DNA of 62,982 bases from Candidatus Sumerlaeota bacterium (GTDB taxonomy: Bacteria > Bacillota > SLNR01): assembly GCA_007132905.1 (NCBI GenBank), contig SLNR01000033.1, positions 1 through 62,982 of the forward strand. Reading direction: 5' to 3'. Positions 52,794-62,776 of the stretch are shown piece after piece (the first letter of the stretch is position 1; each line of letters opens with the position of its first letter). The notes beneath the pieces were generated by a model. The model was not told where the DNA came from, searched no databases, and saw only the letters and a list, made by a program, of their open reading frames with translations. A program made the position numbers and the translations under genes.

Positions 52794-52977
52794 GACAAAA
52801 TAACGCAGATGGACAGAAAAATTCAAAAAATCGGCAGAAACTCAAAATTTATGTGTACGAAACAGGTTTGCTTTGTTATAATAGTAGTCAAATCTTCTTG
52901 TTCTGATTGCCGTAGAAAAGAATGAATAGATAAAGGGCGGTTTGGGCGGGAAGAAACAAAAACTGAGGAGGATGGAC

Positions 52978-54498
52978 ATGATTAGAAAAGGGACCGTAGC
53001 GATTCTGTTGGTAAGTTTGGCGGCTGCCGTGTTTTTTGCCGGCTGTGGCGGAGCACCTGTCGATGAGGCGAGAGAAGAAATTGTCATCGCCCAGGGCGTA
53101 GACGCCACAACCATGGATCCGCATATGCATGCGGAGACAACGACGACCAATGCGATCACAAACATGTATGATCGATTATTGGTGAGGGACCATGACATGG
53201 ATCTACAGCCGCAATTGGCTTTATCCGTGGAACCATTAGATGATCTGACATGGGAAGTGAAGCTTAGGGAGGGCATTGAGTTTCACAATGGGGAGCCTTT
53301 CAATGCTGAAACGGTAAAGTTCAACATTGAGCGGATTATTGATCCTGAGAACCAATCCCCACAGATAGCTGATTTGAATGCAGTGGAAAAGGTGGAAGTC
53401 ATTGATGAGTATACAGCTCACATCATCACCTATGAACCGTATCCTGTCATGGCTGGGCGTCTAAATCTGCCCATGGTGCCAAAAGATTATATCCTGGAAA
53501 ACGGGCAAGAATATTTTGCCCAAAATCCAATTGGGACAGGACCCTATGTATTTGTAAGTTGGACAAGAGACGAGTCCATCGTGTTTGAAGCGAACGAAGA
53601 TTATTGGCAGGGGGCTCCGGCCATCAAAAAAATCACCATTAAGCCCGTACCGGAGAGTTCTACCAGAATTGCTGAGCTTCAAACAGGAGCGGTTGATCTT
53701 ATTGTGAATGTACCGCCGCACCAGGCAGATGTCATTGATGCCGATCCTGTCACAAAAATAGAAACTGTTCCCAGCGGGCGGTTTATCTTTATATCTTTAA
53801 ACACACAGCGCGAAGGTATAATGCAGGACAAAAAGGTGCGCCAGGCTTTGAATCACGCCGTGGACATTGATACGATTATTGATACCGTGTTAGAGGGATA
53901 CGGCTATAAGTCGACCCAGCCCCTTACACCGTTGGACTTTGGCTATGATGATTCCATTGAAGGATATGAGTACAATCCGGAAAAAGCCAGAGATCTCCTA
54001 GCAGAAGCAGGCTATCCTGATGGAATTAGCATTGAACTTGGATCTCCGAGTGGTCGTTATGTAATGGACCGCGAGGTGGCTGAGGCGGTCGCAGGACAGC
54101 TTGCCGAAGTGGGAGTCGAGGCAGAGCTTAACGTCCAAGAATGGGGCGTCTATGTAGGAAAGGTCTTGGAAAAAGAAGCAGAAGAGGCTTATTTGATCGG
54201 TTGGGGCACAGCCCTCTTTGATTCCGATGCAACACTGTATCCCTGGTTTCGAACAGGCATGAGGTTTGCCACATACAGTGATTCCCAGGTAGATGAATAT
54301 CTTGACGAAGCCAGAACTGTCCTAGACGAAGAAGAAAGGGAAGATCTGTACCATCAAGCTTTAGAGATTATCATGGAAGATGCGCCCTTTATTCTTTTGT
54401 ATCAGCAGGAAGATCTTTACGGTCTGAGTGCTGATCTTCAGTGGGAGCCTCGCCCGGATGAACTGATTTTTGTATACGATATGGAATTTGGTGCTTAA
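52978..54498 (+). CDS. Peptide ABC transporter substrate-binding lipoprotein
   Basis: Lipobox AVFFAGCGG; EIVIAQGVDATTMDPHMHAETTTTN; VEFHNGEPF-like (IEFHNGEPFNAETVKFNIERI); ATG at 52978. Confidence 0.92.
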   Translation: MIRKGTVAILLVSLAAAVFFAGCGGAPVDEAREEIVIAQGVDATTMDPHMHAETTTTNAITNMYDRLLVRDHDMDLQPQLALSVEPLDDLTWEVKLREGIEFHNGEPFNAETVKFNIERIIDPENQSPQIADLNAVEKVEVIDEYTAHIITYEPYPVMAGRLNLPMVPKDYILENGQEYFAQNPIGTGPYVFVSWTRDESIVFEANEDYWQGAPAIKKITIKPVPESSTRIAELQTGAVDLIVNVPPHQADVIDADPVTKIETVPSGRFIFISLNTQREGIMQDKKVRQALNHAVDIDTIIDTVLEGYGYKSTQPLTPLDFGYDDSIEGYEYNPEKARDLLAEAGYPDGISIELGSPSGRYVMDREVAEAVAGQLAEVGVEAELNVQEWGVYVGKVLEKEAEEAYLIGWGTALFDSDATLYPWFRTGMRFATYSDSQVDEYLDEARTVLDEEEREDLYHQALEIIMEDAPFILLYQQEDLYGLSADLQWEPRPDELIFVYDMEFGA

Positions 54499-56973: not shown

Positions 56974-57258
56974 GTGAAAATAAGCAGAGAAGAGGTCGAG
57001 CATGTAGCTTTGTTGGCCCGCTTGGCAATTAGCTCAGAAGAAAAGGATATGTTTACCGAGCAGCTAAATGTGATCCTTGAATATGTAGATCAGTTGAATG
57101 AATTAGATACAACTGATGTAAAGCCTACTTCCCATGTGATCCCAGTGAAAAATGTTATGCGTGAAGATCAAGTTGAAACACACTTAACTCAAGAAGAGGC
57201 TTTGAAGAATGCTCCTGAAAAAGAAGAAGGCTATATAAAGGTTCCACGAATTGTTTAG
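56974..57258 (+). CDS. gatC: Asp/Glu-tRNA amidotransferase subunit C
   Basis: ISREEVEHVALLARLAISSEEKDMFTEQLNVILEYVDQLNELDT. Confidence 0.95.
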   Translation: MKISREEVEHVALLARLAISSEEKDMFTEQLNVILEYVDQLNELDTTDVKPTSHVIPVKNVMREDQVETHLTQEEALKNAPEKEEGYIKVPRIV

Positions 57259-57279
57259 GAAATAGACGCGTGAACGGGA

Positions 57280-58770
57280 GTGGTTTATTTGAAAATTCAT
57301 GAAATGACAGCTCATGAACTTCACAATATGTTGAAAACCAAAGAGATTAGTGCAAAAGAAATCACAACAGAGATATTTAGTCATGTCCATCAAGTGGAAG
57401 ATAGAATGAAATCCTATATTACATTAACTGAGGAGAAAGCCTATGCAGCGGCTGACATCGTTGATAAGAAAATAGCCGGCAATGAAGAGATTTCTCCTTT
57501 AGCGGGCATACCAGCGGCGATTAAAGATGTTTTAAGTACAAAAGGAATCGATACCACCTGTGCTTCCAAGATGCTTGATGGATATGTACCTCCTTATGAT
57601 GCAGCGGTTATAGAGAAGCTTTATAAAAACGATATGGTAATGGTCGGAAAAACAAACTGTGATGAATTTGCGATGGGCTCATCTACAGAAAACTCAAGTT
57701 ATTTTCCCACTAGAAATCCTTGGAATACCGATATGGTTCCGGGAGGGTCTAGTGGGGGTTCGGCTGCTTCGGTAGCGGCGGGACAGGCAGTTTATTCACT
57801 TGGCACGGATACGGGAGGTTCTGTTCGGCAGCCGGCTTCTTTTTGCGGGGTGGTCGGACTAAAACCGACTTACGGCCGAGTATCGAGAAACGGCTTGGTG
57901 GCCCTTGCTTCCTCTCTGGATCAAATTGGTCCTTTTACTAAAGATATAAGGGATTGTGCAATTGTGATGAATGCGATTGCGGGTTATGACAAGAAGGATT
58001 CAACATCCATTTCCAGACCGGTCCCTGATTATACAGAAGCCTTAAAAAAAGATATTAAGGGGCTGAAGATTGGTGTTCCGAAAGAATATTTTGCCGAAGG
58101 GATCCAATCTGAAGTGCGTGACGCCATAGAAACGTCTTTGCAGAAATTGGAAGAACTAGGTGCGATAGTTGAAGAGACATCATTGCCCCATTCAAAGTAT
58201 GCGCTAGCCGTGTACTATCTCATTCAGCCTTCGGAGTGTTCATCGAATTTAGCCAAATTTGACGGGGTTCGTTATGGTTATCGAGACAAGTCAGCTGAAA
58301 ATCTAATCGATATGTATATGAAAACCCGAAGCGAAGGGTTTGGAAAAGAAGTGAAAAGGCGTATTATGCTTGGAACTTATGCATTAAGTTCCGGCTACTA
58401 TGATGCTTATTACTTAAAGGCTTTAAAAGTCCGTACTTTGATTTTGCAGGACTTTGAAAAGGCATTTGGCGAATATGATGTTCTGGTGGCGCCGACCAGC
58501 CCGACAGTGGCGTTTCCGTTTGGCGAGAAAACAGAAAATCCACTACAGATGTATCTATCGGATATCTGTACCATTCCTATCAATTTAGCAGGCATACCTG
58601 GTCTATCAATACCTTGCGGATTTAGTGATGGTCTGCCTATAGGTCTTCAGATCTTGGGAGAACCTTTTAGCGAAGAGAAGCTACTGCAGGTAGGTTATGC
58701 TTTTGAAAAGAATAGCGAGTTTCATTTAGCCAGGCCCTCTTTTGTGGAAGGTGGTGTTGAGGGTGAATGA
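57280..58770 (+). CDS. gatA: Asp/Glu-tRNA amidotransferase subunit A
   Basis: [73 protein letters not shown]. Confidence 0.97.
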
Positions 58771-60211
58771 ACAGTACGAATCGGTGATTGGTTTGGAAGT
58801 CCATGTAGAAATGAAGACCAATAGCAAAATGTTCTGCGCCTGCAGTGCCGAATTTGGTGCCGAACCCAATACGAATGTTTGTCCTGTTTGCCTGGGACTT
58901 CCCGGGGCTTTGCCTGTTCTTAACAAGAAGGCGGTGGATTTTGCTATACAGACAGCTATCGCATTACAATGTCGTGTTGCTCCCAGCAGTCAATTTGCCA
59001 GGAAAAACTATTTTTATCCTGATTTAGCGAAAGGCTATCAAATATCTCAATATGATTTGCCTCTAGCGAAGAACGGGTTGTTATCGATTGCTACCGATGA
59101 AGAAGATCATGATATACGAATCAACAGGGTCCATTTAGAAGAAGATGCCGGTAAATTGATTCATATCGGGACGATATCAACATCGCCTTATTCAATGGTG
59201 GATTATAATCGATCAGGCGTTCCTCTTATGGAAATTGTCTCCGAACCGGACATCAGAACAGCCGAACAGGCTAGAGCTTACCTTGAAAAACTAAAGGCTG
59301 TTCTGCAATTTATCGGAGTCTCAGACTGCAAGATGGAGGAAGGATCGCTTCGCTGTGATGCGAATATTTCCATACGGAAAATAGGATCGAGTGAGTTTGG
59401 AACAAAAGCCGAGATTAAGAATCTAAATTCGTTTCGATCTGTGGCCAAGAGTATTGAATACGAAGCCGATAGACAATACGAACTACTGGAAAAGGGGACG
59501 GCCCTTGAACAGGAAACCAGGACATGGGATGAAACAAAAGAAGTCACAATGACACTGCGAAGTAAAGAAGAAGCCCATGATTATCGTTATTTCCCGGATC
59601 CGGATCTTGTAGCGATTGAAGTAGATGAAAGCTGGATTAAAGGTTTGGAAAGCAAGCTTCCGGAACTGCCGGCTGCCAGGCAGAAAAGATTCATGGAGAA
59701 ATATGGCTTGGGCCGGTATGATGCTAAAATGCTAACAGCACACCCTCAAACAGGAGTCTTTTTCGACGAAGTGATGAAGCAGTACTCAAATGGCAAAGCC
59801 GTCAGCAATTGGATTGTGGGTGATCTTATGCGCTGTTTGAATGAAGCTGGATTGGGATGGGAAGAAAATCCTTTAAAGCCTGAACAGTTGGCAGGCATGC
59901 TGAAAATGCTTGATGAAGGCGTGATAAGCGGGAAAATAGCTAAAACAGTTTTTCTGGACATGTTTGAATCAGGGAAAAACGCCGAAGATATCATTGAAGC
60001 CAAAGGGCTTAAACAAATCTCTGATAAATCGGTGCTTGAGGAAATCGTGGAGACAGTAGTTGAAGAGAATCCAAAAACAGTGGCAGATGTGAAAAGTGGG
60101 AAGACAAAAGCAGCACAATATCTGGTGGGTCAAGTTATGAAAGTGACCAAAGGGAAAGCCAATCCAGGGTTAGTGAAGGAACTTATAGAAAAAGAACTTG
60201 AAAATAAGTAA
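58763..60211 (+). CDS. gatB: Asp/Glu-tRNA amidotransferase subunit B
   Basis: [61 protein letters not shown] at 58763. Confidence 0.97.
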
Positions 60212-60257
60212 AAAAAATTTCAAAAAAAGAAGGATATAGAAAAAAGATGTAGAATAG

Positions 60258-60286
60258 TTGACGCTTATATAATGATTTTGTATAAT
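60258..60286 (+). promoter_or_regulatory. Strong predicted sigma-A promoter
   Basis: TTGACG-N17-TATAAT; predicted start ~60293 coincides with the first aptamer stem. Confidence 0.8.
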
Positions 60287-60292
60287 ATAAAA

Positions 60293-60404
60293 AGGAAGTG
60301 TGCCTAGGGTTCCGTAGCTTAGCTGGTCAGGTCCGAGCGGCACAAGGTACTGCTAAAGTGTAGTACCACACCGTGGGTAGAAAAGACCCAAGCGGAAAGT
60401 TCCT
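60293..60404 (+). promoter_or_regulatory. ykkC subtype-2 riboswitch aptamer, favouring the ppGpp class
   Basis: P1 AGGAA/TTCCT; conserved CCTAGGGTTCCG, GGTCCGAGCGG, GGTACT..AGTACC hairpin, ACACCG, GGGTAGAAAAGACCC, AGCGGAAAG. Confidence 0.85.
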
Positions 60405-60440
60405 CTCTTTCATGAGTCGGATATCTGCTTGGGTTTTTTG
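60386..60440 (+). terminator. Terminator of the ykkC-type riboswitch
   Basis: ACCCAAGCGGA ... TCTGCTTGGGT followed by TTTTT; 5' strand overlaps the aptamer 3' segment. Confidence 0.85.
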
Positions 60441-60456
60441 TAAAAAAATAACAAAA

Positions 60457-60735
60457 AGCAATGATGGGAATTAGTACAGGATGTTTTGCTGCCACAGAGA
60501 GCCGTGCTGCTGAGAGACGGTCGGCAATTATTTTGGAATCTCCTCCCAAAGCTGCGTACTGAAGGCATTCATTTGCTATTAGGTTTCGCCGGTTAACACA
60601 GGCTACCGTTATCCAGCCGGGGTATCGCTTCTGTTATAGGAAGCCGTACTTGAATGAAACTGCGTTGCAGTCAAGGGTGGTACAGCGGGATAGACTCCCG
60701 TCCCTGGAGAAATTCAAGGATGGGGGTTTTTACTT
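60457..60735 (+). promoter_or_regulatory. T-box leader (tRNA-responsive) with terminator/antiterminator
   Basis: Stem I base AGCAA/TTGCT; AGTA loop-E motif 60473-60476; AGAGAGCCGTGCTGCTGAGAGACGG distal loop; putative specifier GAA-GGC-A at 60561-60567; T-box AAGGGTGGTACAGCGGG 60673-60689; antiterminator GCGGGA/TCCCGT; terminator CTCCCGTCC/GGATGGGGG then TTTTT. Confidence 0.9.
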
Positions 60736-60906
60736 ACTTAAGATAGCAATTTGAGGGGGTGGTTTAATTACCTTATTGGCCTTGGGAACAAAGATAAGCC
60801 GGCAGGAAAGATAATGACCGGCGCAAGAATGACATGGGGATTGACTCAGGAAAAGGGAGTGCAGAGATGTTGAAGGACATAATGATAAGAAAGGCAGGTG
60901 GTTACC

Positions 60907-61824
60907 TTGACGAAGTATATTGTACGTAGACTTCAGCAGTCCGTGCTGGTCATTTTTGGAGTTTCGTTGGTGGTTTTCTTTATCATGCATATGACGGGTG
61001 ACCCTGCCACTCTTATGCTACCTTTGGATGCCACAGCCGAGGAAGTTTATCAGTTTAAGGAATCTTTGGGGTTAAATGATCCTCTTCCTACCCAGTATTT
61101 TCGTTTTCTCGGCGGAGCCGTGCAGGGTGATTTCGGGAACTCACTTCGACATAATTCTCCGGCTCTGCCGTTGGTGATGGAACGCCTTCCGGCAACATTT
61201 CAGCTGACATTTTTGGCTATGGCTATTGCTGTTTTCATCGCGATACCCATTGGGGTTATTTCAGCCACCAGGCGGTATTCCATTTTTGACTATGTGGGAA
61301 CCGTAGGTGGTCTTCTGGGCCAATCGATGCCGGTCTTTTGGCTGGGTATAATGTTAATTTTGCTTTTCGGTGTTCAACTTCAGGTATTGCCGACTTCCGG
61401 TAGAGGAACTTTTGCACATTTAATACTGCCGGCCATCACTCTGGGAACTTATTCCACAGCCACCATCATGAGGCTTTTACGATCAGGGATGGTAGAAGTA
61501 TTAAAGCAGGATTATATAAAAACAGCCCAATCGAAGGGTCTTTCGGAGAAAGTTGTCATTTATAAGCATGCACTCAAGAATGCTCTTATTCCTGTAGCGA
61601 CAGTTATTGGACTCCAGTTCGGGGCTTTGCTCGGCGGAGCCGTGATCACAGAGACAATTTTTGCTTGGCCCGGTGTCGGGCGGCTTGCGATCCAAGCCAT
61701 TAACAATCGGGATCTTCCCTTAGTCCAGTCTATTGTCTTTATTATGGCTTCATCGATTGTTTTAATCAATTTGCTGACGGACGTGGCTTATACCTATCTA
61801 GATCCAAGAATACGATATGATTAG
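60907..61824 (+). CDS. Peptide ABC transporter permease (DppB/OppB type)
   Basis: TKYIVRRLQQSVLVIFGVSLVVFFIMHMTGDP, EAA-loop TAQSKGLSEKVVIYKHALKNALIPVATVIGLQFGALLGGAVITETIF; TTG at 60907 likely (ORF track begins at GTG 60898). Confidence 0.93.
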   Translation: MTKYIVRRLQQSVLVIFGVSLVVFFIMHMTGDPATLMLPLDATAEEVYQFKESLGLNDPLPTQYFRFLGGAVQGDFGNSLRHNSPALPLVMERLPATFQLTFLAMAIAVFIAIPIGVISATRRYSIFDYVGTVGGLLGQSMPVFWLGIMLILLFGVQLQVLPTSGRGTFAHLILPAITLGTYSTATIMRLLRSGMVEVLKQDYIKTAQSKGLSEKVVIYKHALKNALIPVATVIGLQFGALLGGAVITETIFAWPGVGRLAIQAINNRDLPLVQSIVFIMASSIVLINLLTDVAYTYLDPRIRYD

Positions 61825-61837
61825 GAGGTGGTGAAAA

Positions 61838-62776
61838 ATGGATGATTACATTGGAACCGTATTGAAAAGACAGAAGGAAGAGGAAGTGGTAGAAGAGGAA
61901 AAGACTCCTTCTGAAACGTCGATAAAGGTTCGCAGAGCGCTGAAAGGATTGGTTAAAAATAAGGCTGCACTCGTTGGGGCGTGTATTTTGGTGGCAGTAG
62001 TGGCAGTTGCTTTAATGGCATCTGTTATTTCACCCTATGATCCTAATTCTCAAAATTTAGCTCTGAGGCTTACTCCGCCGGCTTGGGCTGAAGGGGGAAG
62101 CATCTCCCATGTTTTAGGGACGGATCATCTAGGTAGAGATATATTAAGCAGGCTATTTTTTGGAGCAAGGATTTCCTTAATGGTAGGGGCGGTGGCGGTC
62201 GTTATTTCAGGTTTCCTGGGAACTACATTAGGTCTGTTATCAGGTTTCTATGGGAATAAGGTAGATACGTTTATCATGCGGCTGGCCGATATACAGCTAG
62301 CTTTCCCCTTTATATTGCTTGCTTTGGCTGTTATGGCCGTCCTTGGTAGCGGACTTCGTAATGTTATCATTGTATTAGGCGTAACCGGTTGGGTAATGTA
62401 CGGTCGAGTTGTTCGAAGCGAAGTAATTTCGATTAGAGAAAAAGAATATGTGGAAGCTTCAAGAGCCATCGGGAATAAAGATATCCAGATTATGATGAAG
62501 CATATTCTTCCCAATATTATCAGTACCATCGTGATCATTGGTACTTTGGAAGTAGCCAGGGTTATTATTGCAGAATCAGCCCTGACCTTTTTGGGTTTGG
62601 GTGTGGAACCCTCCATACCAACCTGGGGGAGCATGCTTTCTGATGGCAGAGAGTATATTTCTAATGCCTGGTGGGTAGCTACCTTTCCTGGTTTGGCGAT
62701 CATGTTTACGGTTTTGGGTATCAATCTTGTTGGTGACTGGCTCAGAGACACCCTCGATCCACGTCTAAAAACTTAA
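61838..62776 (+). CDS. Peptide ABC transporter permease (DppC/OppC type)
   Basis: LGTDHLGRDILSRLFFGARISLMVG, VEASRAIGNKDIQIMMKHILPNIISTIVIIGTLEVARVIIAESALTFLGLGVEPSIPTWG. Confidence 0.94.
   Translation: MDDYIGTVLKRQKEEEVVEEEKTPSETSIKVRRALKGLVKNKAALVGACILVAVVAVALMASVISPYDPNSQNLALRLTPPAWAEGGSISHVLGTDHLGRDILSRLFFGARISLMVGAVAVVISGFLGTTLGLLSGFYGNKVDTFIMRLADIQLAFPFILLALAVMAVLGSGLRNVIIVLGVTGWVMYGRVVRSEVISIREKEYVEASRAIGNKDIQIMMKHILPNIISTIVIIGTLEVARVIIAESALTFLGLGVEPSIPTWGSMLSDGREYISNAWWVATFPGLAIMFTVLGINLVGDWLRDTLDPRLKT

Follow-up and report, generated by a model that had tools for sequence, protein, structure and literature searches.

The closest described relative of the leader analyzed here is the ppGpp/T box(Leu) tandem, a published AND gate (PMC9481103 Table 2; PMC5912903 Fig. 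6C), with 15 examples in the order found here and 16 in the reverse order (PMC9481103). The ppGpp riboswitch is ykkC subtype 2a, and has its scaffold and its P0 helix in common with subtypes 2b (the PRPP riboswitch) and 2c. P0 is missing from guanidine-I aptamers and present in PRPP and ppGpp aptamers; position 49 is A in guanidine-I aptamers and a pyrimidine in the other two; and position 96 is G in PRPP aptamers and lost or non-G in ppGpp aptamers, where one base change converts PRPP to ppGpp specificity (PMC6031431).

Here we analyze a leader in a 62,982-nt contig of Candidatus Sumerlaeota bacterium (SLNR01000033.1), referred to in its entirety as the window. As judged by the evidence below, the leader of the dppBC genes is probably a tandem transcription-attenuation gate composed of a ppGpp-type aptamer and a Leu T-box. 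It resembles the published gate in its elements, their order, the separate expression platform of each and the Leu T-box, but its target is an Opp/Dpp-family permease, whereas the published tandem, by its description, controls branched-chain amino-acid biosynthesis genes. A sequence-only reading of the window had noted that tandems with T-boxes were reported, and the two papers cited above bear this out.

Architecture of the dppBC leader

A cmscan of positions 60150-60950 gave a ykkC match on the + strand (RF00442, 60293-60396, 53.0 bits, E 1.7e-8) and a T-box match spanning model positions 1-219 (RF00230, E 1.7e-18; Table 1). In genome-wide searches the former was the sole convincing ykkC match (E 1.1e-8), and the latter was one of 22 T-boxes. 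Two further matches from the same cmscan, epsC and DAOA-AS1_2, lie far under their cut-offs and were taken as chance. Zero matches were returned when the whole window was scanned at the Rfam gathering cut-offs; these are 63 for RF00442 and 93 for RF00230, and default annotation misses the aptamer and the T-box because both score below them. For the T-box, the lowered score is explained by a bulge that reads UGGUACA in place of UGGUACC and by a degraded Stem II S-turn. Stem I with its specifier loop, the T-box bulge, the antiterminator and the terminator are all present. The covariance models thus match both elements named in the sequence-only reading, the coordinates it gave for the aptamer and its terminator agree with ours within a few bases, and the T-box that it placed at 60457-60735 is real, with a start about 5 nt earlier.

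Table 1. Coordinates of the leader, its parts and the neighboring genes.
Feature	Position	Strand	Remarks
dppA	52942-54498		followed by dppD, dppF
gatCAB	56974-60211		between dppADF and the leader
Sigma-70-type promoter, TTGACG-17-TATAAT	60258..60286	+	11/12 matches
ykkC subtype 2 aptamer, ppGpp type	60293..60403	+	RF00442, models R1/R2, residue roles from PMC6031431
Aptamer P0 helix, GGAA/UUCC	60294-60297 / 60400-60403	+	read from sequence
Aptamer P3	60375-60378 / 60386-60389	+	
Terminator 1	60386..60440	+	overlaps 3' strands of P3 and P0; U run 60434-60439
T-box leader to antiterminator	60452..60708	+	RF00230, 83.5 bits
Helix flanking specifier, UGGGA/UCCCA	60465-60469 / 60544-60548	+	
Specifier codon CUC (Leu)	60540..60542	+	register rule from flanking helix
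T-box bulge UGGUACA	60678..60684	+	UGGU complements ACCA of tRNA-Leu(GAG)
Terminator 2	60693..60731	+	overlaps 3' strand of antiterminator
dppB-like permease gene	60898..61824	+	likely alternative start TTG at 60907
dppC-like permease gene	61838..62776	+	

The promoter proposed earlier is present exactly as described and would start the RNA at about 60293, at the P0 strand of the aptamer. Since chance should give about 1.4 equally good matches in a region of this size, the match alone is not rare, and the promoter is credible because of its position. A promoter scan of the region revealed no further promoter-like sites, neither between the aptamer and the T-box nor upstream of dppB. The two elements occupy a single leader, with no ORF between them and separate terminators.

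That each element has a terminator of its own, as had been claimed, was recovered by folding. Terminator 1 folds with -24.6 kcal/mol (z about -5.7 relative to mononucleotide shuffles). Its 5' arm, ACCCAAGCGGA, is the 3' strand of P3 plus the conserved GCGG, and the P0 3' strand is also included; with P0 the aptamer reaches 60294-60403, and positions 60386-60403 are common to the terminator and P3/P0, so that the two folds are mutually exclusive. An ON switch has this arrangement, in line with reports on the class. Terminator 2 (-21.1 kcal/mol, z about -5.1) and the competing T-box antiterminator (-12.7 kcal/mol) are likewise mutually exclusive. The spacer that separates terminator 2 from dppB (60735-60897, some 160 nt) contains very short frames only, and no RNA family match was found in it.

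Ligand class and T-box specificity

The ykkC core (P1-P3, CUAGGGUUCCG, GGUCCGAG and ACACCG) is present, as judged by the RF00442 match and the R1 score given below. Position 49 is C (GGUCCGAG-C) and P0 is present by sequence, both of which separate the aptamer from guanidine-I. The sequence reads GACCC-AA-GCGG around the equivalent of position 96, which is A60391 and not the G of PRPP aptamers, and the equivalent of C75, which pairs with the guanine of ppGpp, is retained.

We compared these residues with 88 ykkC matches from 63 of 101 genomes, read in register and listed with their downstream frames, which were named by inspection. All 14 aligned leaders of purine-type genes (purB, purC, purE, purK, NCS2 permeases and similar) carry G96, and those of ilvE, an LIV-type binding protein, dppB and others carry A96 in 11 of 14 cases by our own reading, with two G and one unclear. 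Position 96 alone is not absolute, given the G in 2 of the 14 leaders grouped as ppGpp-type. Covariance models of the ppGpp type (R1) and the PRPP type (R2), trained with the window left out, gave the window aptamer 96.5 and 64.7 bits, respectively, a difference of 31.8 bits for the ppGpp type. Held-out loci scored as expected, for example L126 (R1 79.7, R2 105.4 bits) and L187 (R1 76.1, R2 65.9 bits). Guanidine-I and PRPP identities were dropped on positions 49 and 96 plus the model scores.

The common scaffold and P0 of subtypes 2a-2c, and the single base that suffices to switch PRPP to ppGpp (PMC6031431), leave some room for PRPP or another nucleotide (e.g. an NDP) as ligand, in which case the gate would report nucleotide precursors and leucine. 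We regard this as improbable given A at position 96, the R1 and R2 scores, the retained C75 equivalent and downstream genes that are not purine genes. The evidence supports a ppGpp-like rather than a PRPP-like aptamer, and the earlier assignment to ykkC subtype 2 with ppGpp as the likely ligand is upheld by A96 and the margin of R1 over R2. The differences from the PRPP riboswitch are A96 in place of G96 and an amino-acid/peptide context in place of purine-gene targets; from the subtype 2a ppGpp riboswitch, with which the window aptamer shares P0, P1-P3, a non-G position 96 and a terminator overlapping P3/P0, it differs in nothing essential, its target being peptide import.

The specifier was read as the codon that precedes the 3' strand of the lower helix in Stem I, with a single nucleotide between the two. 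Among 20 T-boxes extracted from the same genome (specifiers thrS ACC, leuS CUC, ileS AUC, proC CCC, serS UCC, cysS UGC, trpS UGG and hisS CAC), 13 were of known identity; with the scripted rule, the codon expected for them came out on top in 10 and at least second in 12. Applied to the window, it yields CUC from the UGGGA/UCCCA helix, with the second candidate far behind. The genome contains a tRNA-Leu(GAG) with A73 and the encoded end ...CCGCACCA, whose ACCA complements the bulge UGGU. A serine codon, UCU, immediately follows GAA, as do the codons of leuS, trpS and proC; nevertheless a serine specifier is most improbable, since (i) the five-pair helix plus one nucleotide puts the codon at CUC, (ii) the ilvB T-box (L019), with a GGGA/UCCC helix, has the identical register (AUC-G-UCCC), and (iii) the T-boxes of related dpp operons are branched-chain. 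Taken together, the sequence supports a T-box specific for Leu (CUC).

Related leaders and dpp operons

With R1, 399 genomes of the phylum were searched and the best loci compared. Among these, a T-box-then-ppGpp leader lies upstream of ilvE in 8 genomes. Seven such leaders (L246, L261, L243, L255, L262, L266 and L269) have AUC (Ile) specifiers, unlike PMC9481103, which gives this order as T box(Leu). The ppGpp-then-T-box order with CUC occurs upstream of ilvB (L268, from the R1 search) and of an ilvN-like gene (L187, from the earlier ykkC set); the CUC of L268 was read by eye, because the helices that the script ranked highest there were long and spurious. Together with the leader in the window, which has a different target, the sample thus contains three leaders of the ppGpp-then-T-box(Leu) kind.

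The genes that follow had been called peptide permeases. Membership of the Opp/Dpp family stands, but the name holds at family level only, and the best NCBIfam matches are nickel/peptide permeases, all under the curated cut-offs. Between 52942 and 62776, gatCAB splits the dpp genes into dppADF and dppBC, and the double leader precedes dppBC only; the genome-wide T-box search found no T-box upstream of dppADF.

Related dppB genes, 57-61% identical, are found in Bacillota and Clostridia MAGs. In three of these operons (L033, L034 and L039; DppB 57-60% identical) the same transporter family as in the window lies under branched-chain T-boxes; unlike the window, an Ile T-box adjoins dppA at the head of a whole dppADFBC operon, and there is no ppGpp aptamer. 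The Ile codons of L034 and L039 were read by eye. L033 and L034 have an additional Leu T-box further upstream, and on inspection each T-box seems to have its own promoter. Three other operons open with dppA-dppB behind a lone ykkC subtype 2 RNA (L035:2473-2599, L041:3226-3349 and L049:3210-3342), which may lack the nucleotide at position 96 and which the scores of the ppGpp- and PRPP-type models do not separate. Finally, a ppGpp-type RNA lies directly upstream of a more distant dppB in L137 (R1 99.1, R2 82.7 bits) and L160 (R1 105.7, R2 76.1 bits), both of which were in the R1 training set. Opp/Dpp-type permeases are thus repeatedly wired to branched-chain or starvation sensors, and among the dpp operons examined both sensor types occur only in the window.

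Proposed gate logic and peptide uptake

That the leader binds its ligands, switches ON and follows AND logic is inferred, as is its physiological role. RNA polymerase would start at about 60293 and transcribe the ppGpp-type aptamer followed by the Leu T-box. Bound ppGpp is expected to stabilise P3/P0 and so block terminator 1, acting as an ON switch, and uncharged tRNA-Leu(GAG), by pairing with CUC and UGGU, would stabilise the antiterminator and block terminator 2. Both ligands would then be needed for the permease genes to be transcribed in full, such that peptide uptake is raised only under general starvation plus leucine shortage.

Leaky terminators or an undetected internal promoter would blur this logic. 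The outputs of tandem-switch populations are not perfect Boolean functions (PMC5912903), and related dpp operons work with T-boxes alone or a ykkC RNA alone, so one element may be leaky or decayed, which would make the output graded or leave it chiefly to the T-box. We consider a blurred gate of this kind rather unlikely, as the conserved cores are kept in both aptamer and T-box and both terminators are strong.

Separately, the genome encodes three orphan substrate-binding proteins, 52-58% identical to the window DppA, each behind a T-box (L021, C8:14563-14802; L030, C111:2256-2508; L031, C143:19747-19995). No permease genes were found beside them on the available contigs of this fragmented assembly (173 contigs), and the only other full dppB homologues in the genome are two that are 40-47% identical. 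It is conceivable, but unlikely, that the leader acts as the master gate of a DppBC translocator shared by at least three T-box-controlled binding proteins, which choose the peptides that enter. The specifiers of the three T-boxes are ambiguous under the register rule (UGG/AUG, UUC/AUU and UAC/ACC, respectively); read directly after GAA they would be Trp, Phe and Tyr. The C111 and C143 leaders each contain two antiterminator cores, 78 nt apart.

For annotation, this locus illustrates that the Rfam gathering cut-offs can overlook both halves of such a tandem leader. For the biology, the related dpp operons present one transporter family wired to differing starvation sensors, and a shared translocator, if it exists, would imply a two-tier RNA network governing peptide uptake. 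Based on the proposed gate, we suggest that the ppGpp/T-box AND gate probably extends from amino-acid biosynthesis to peptide import.
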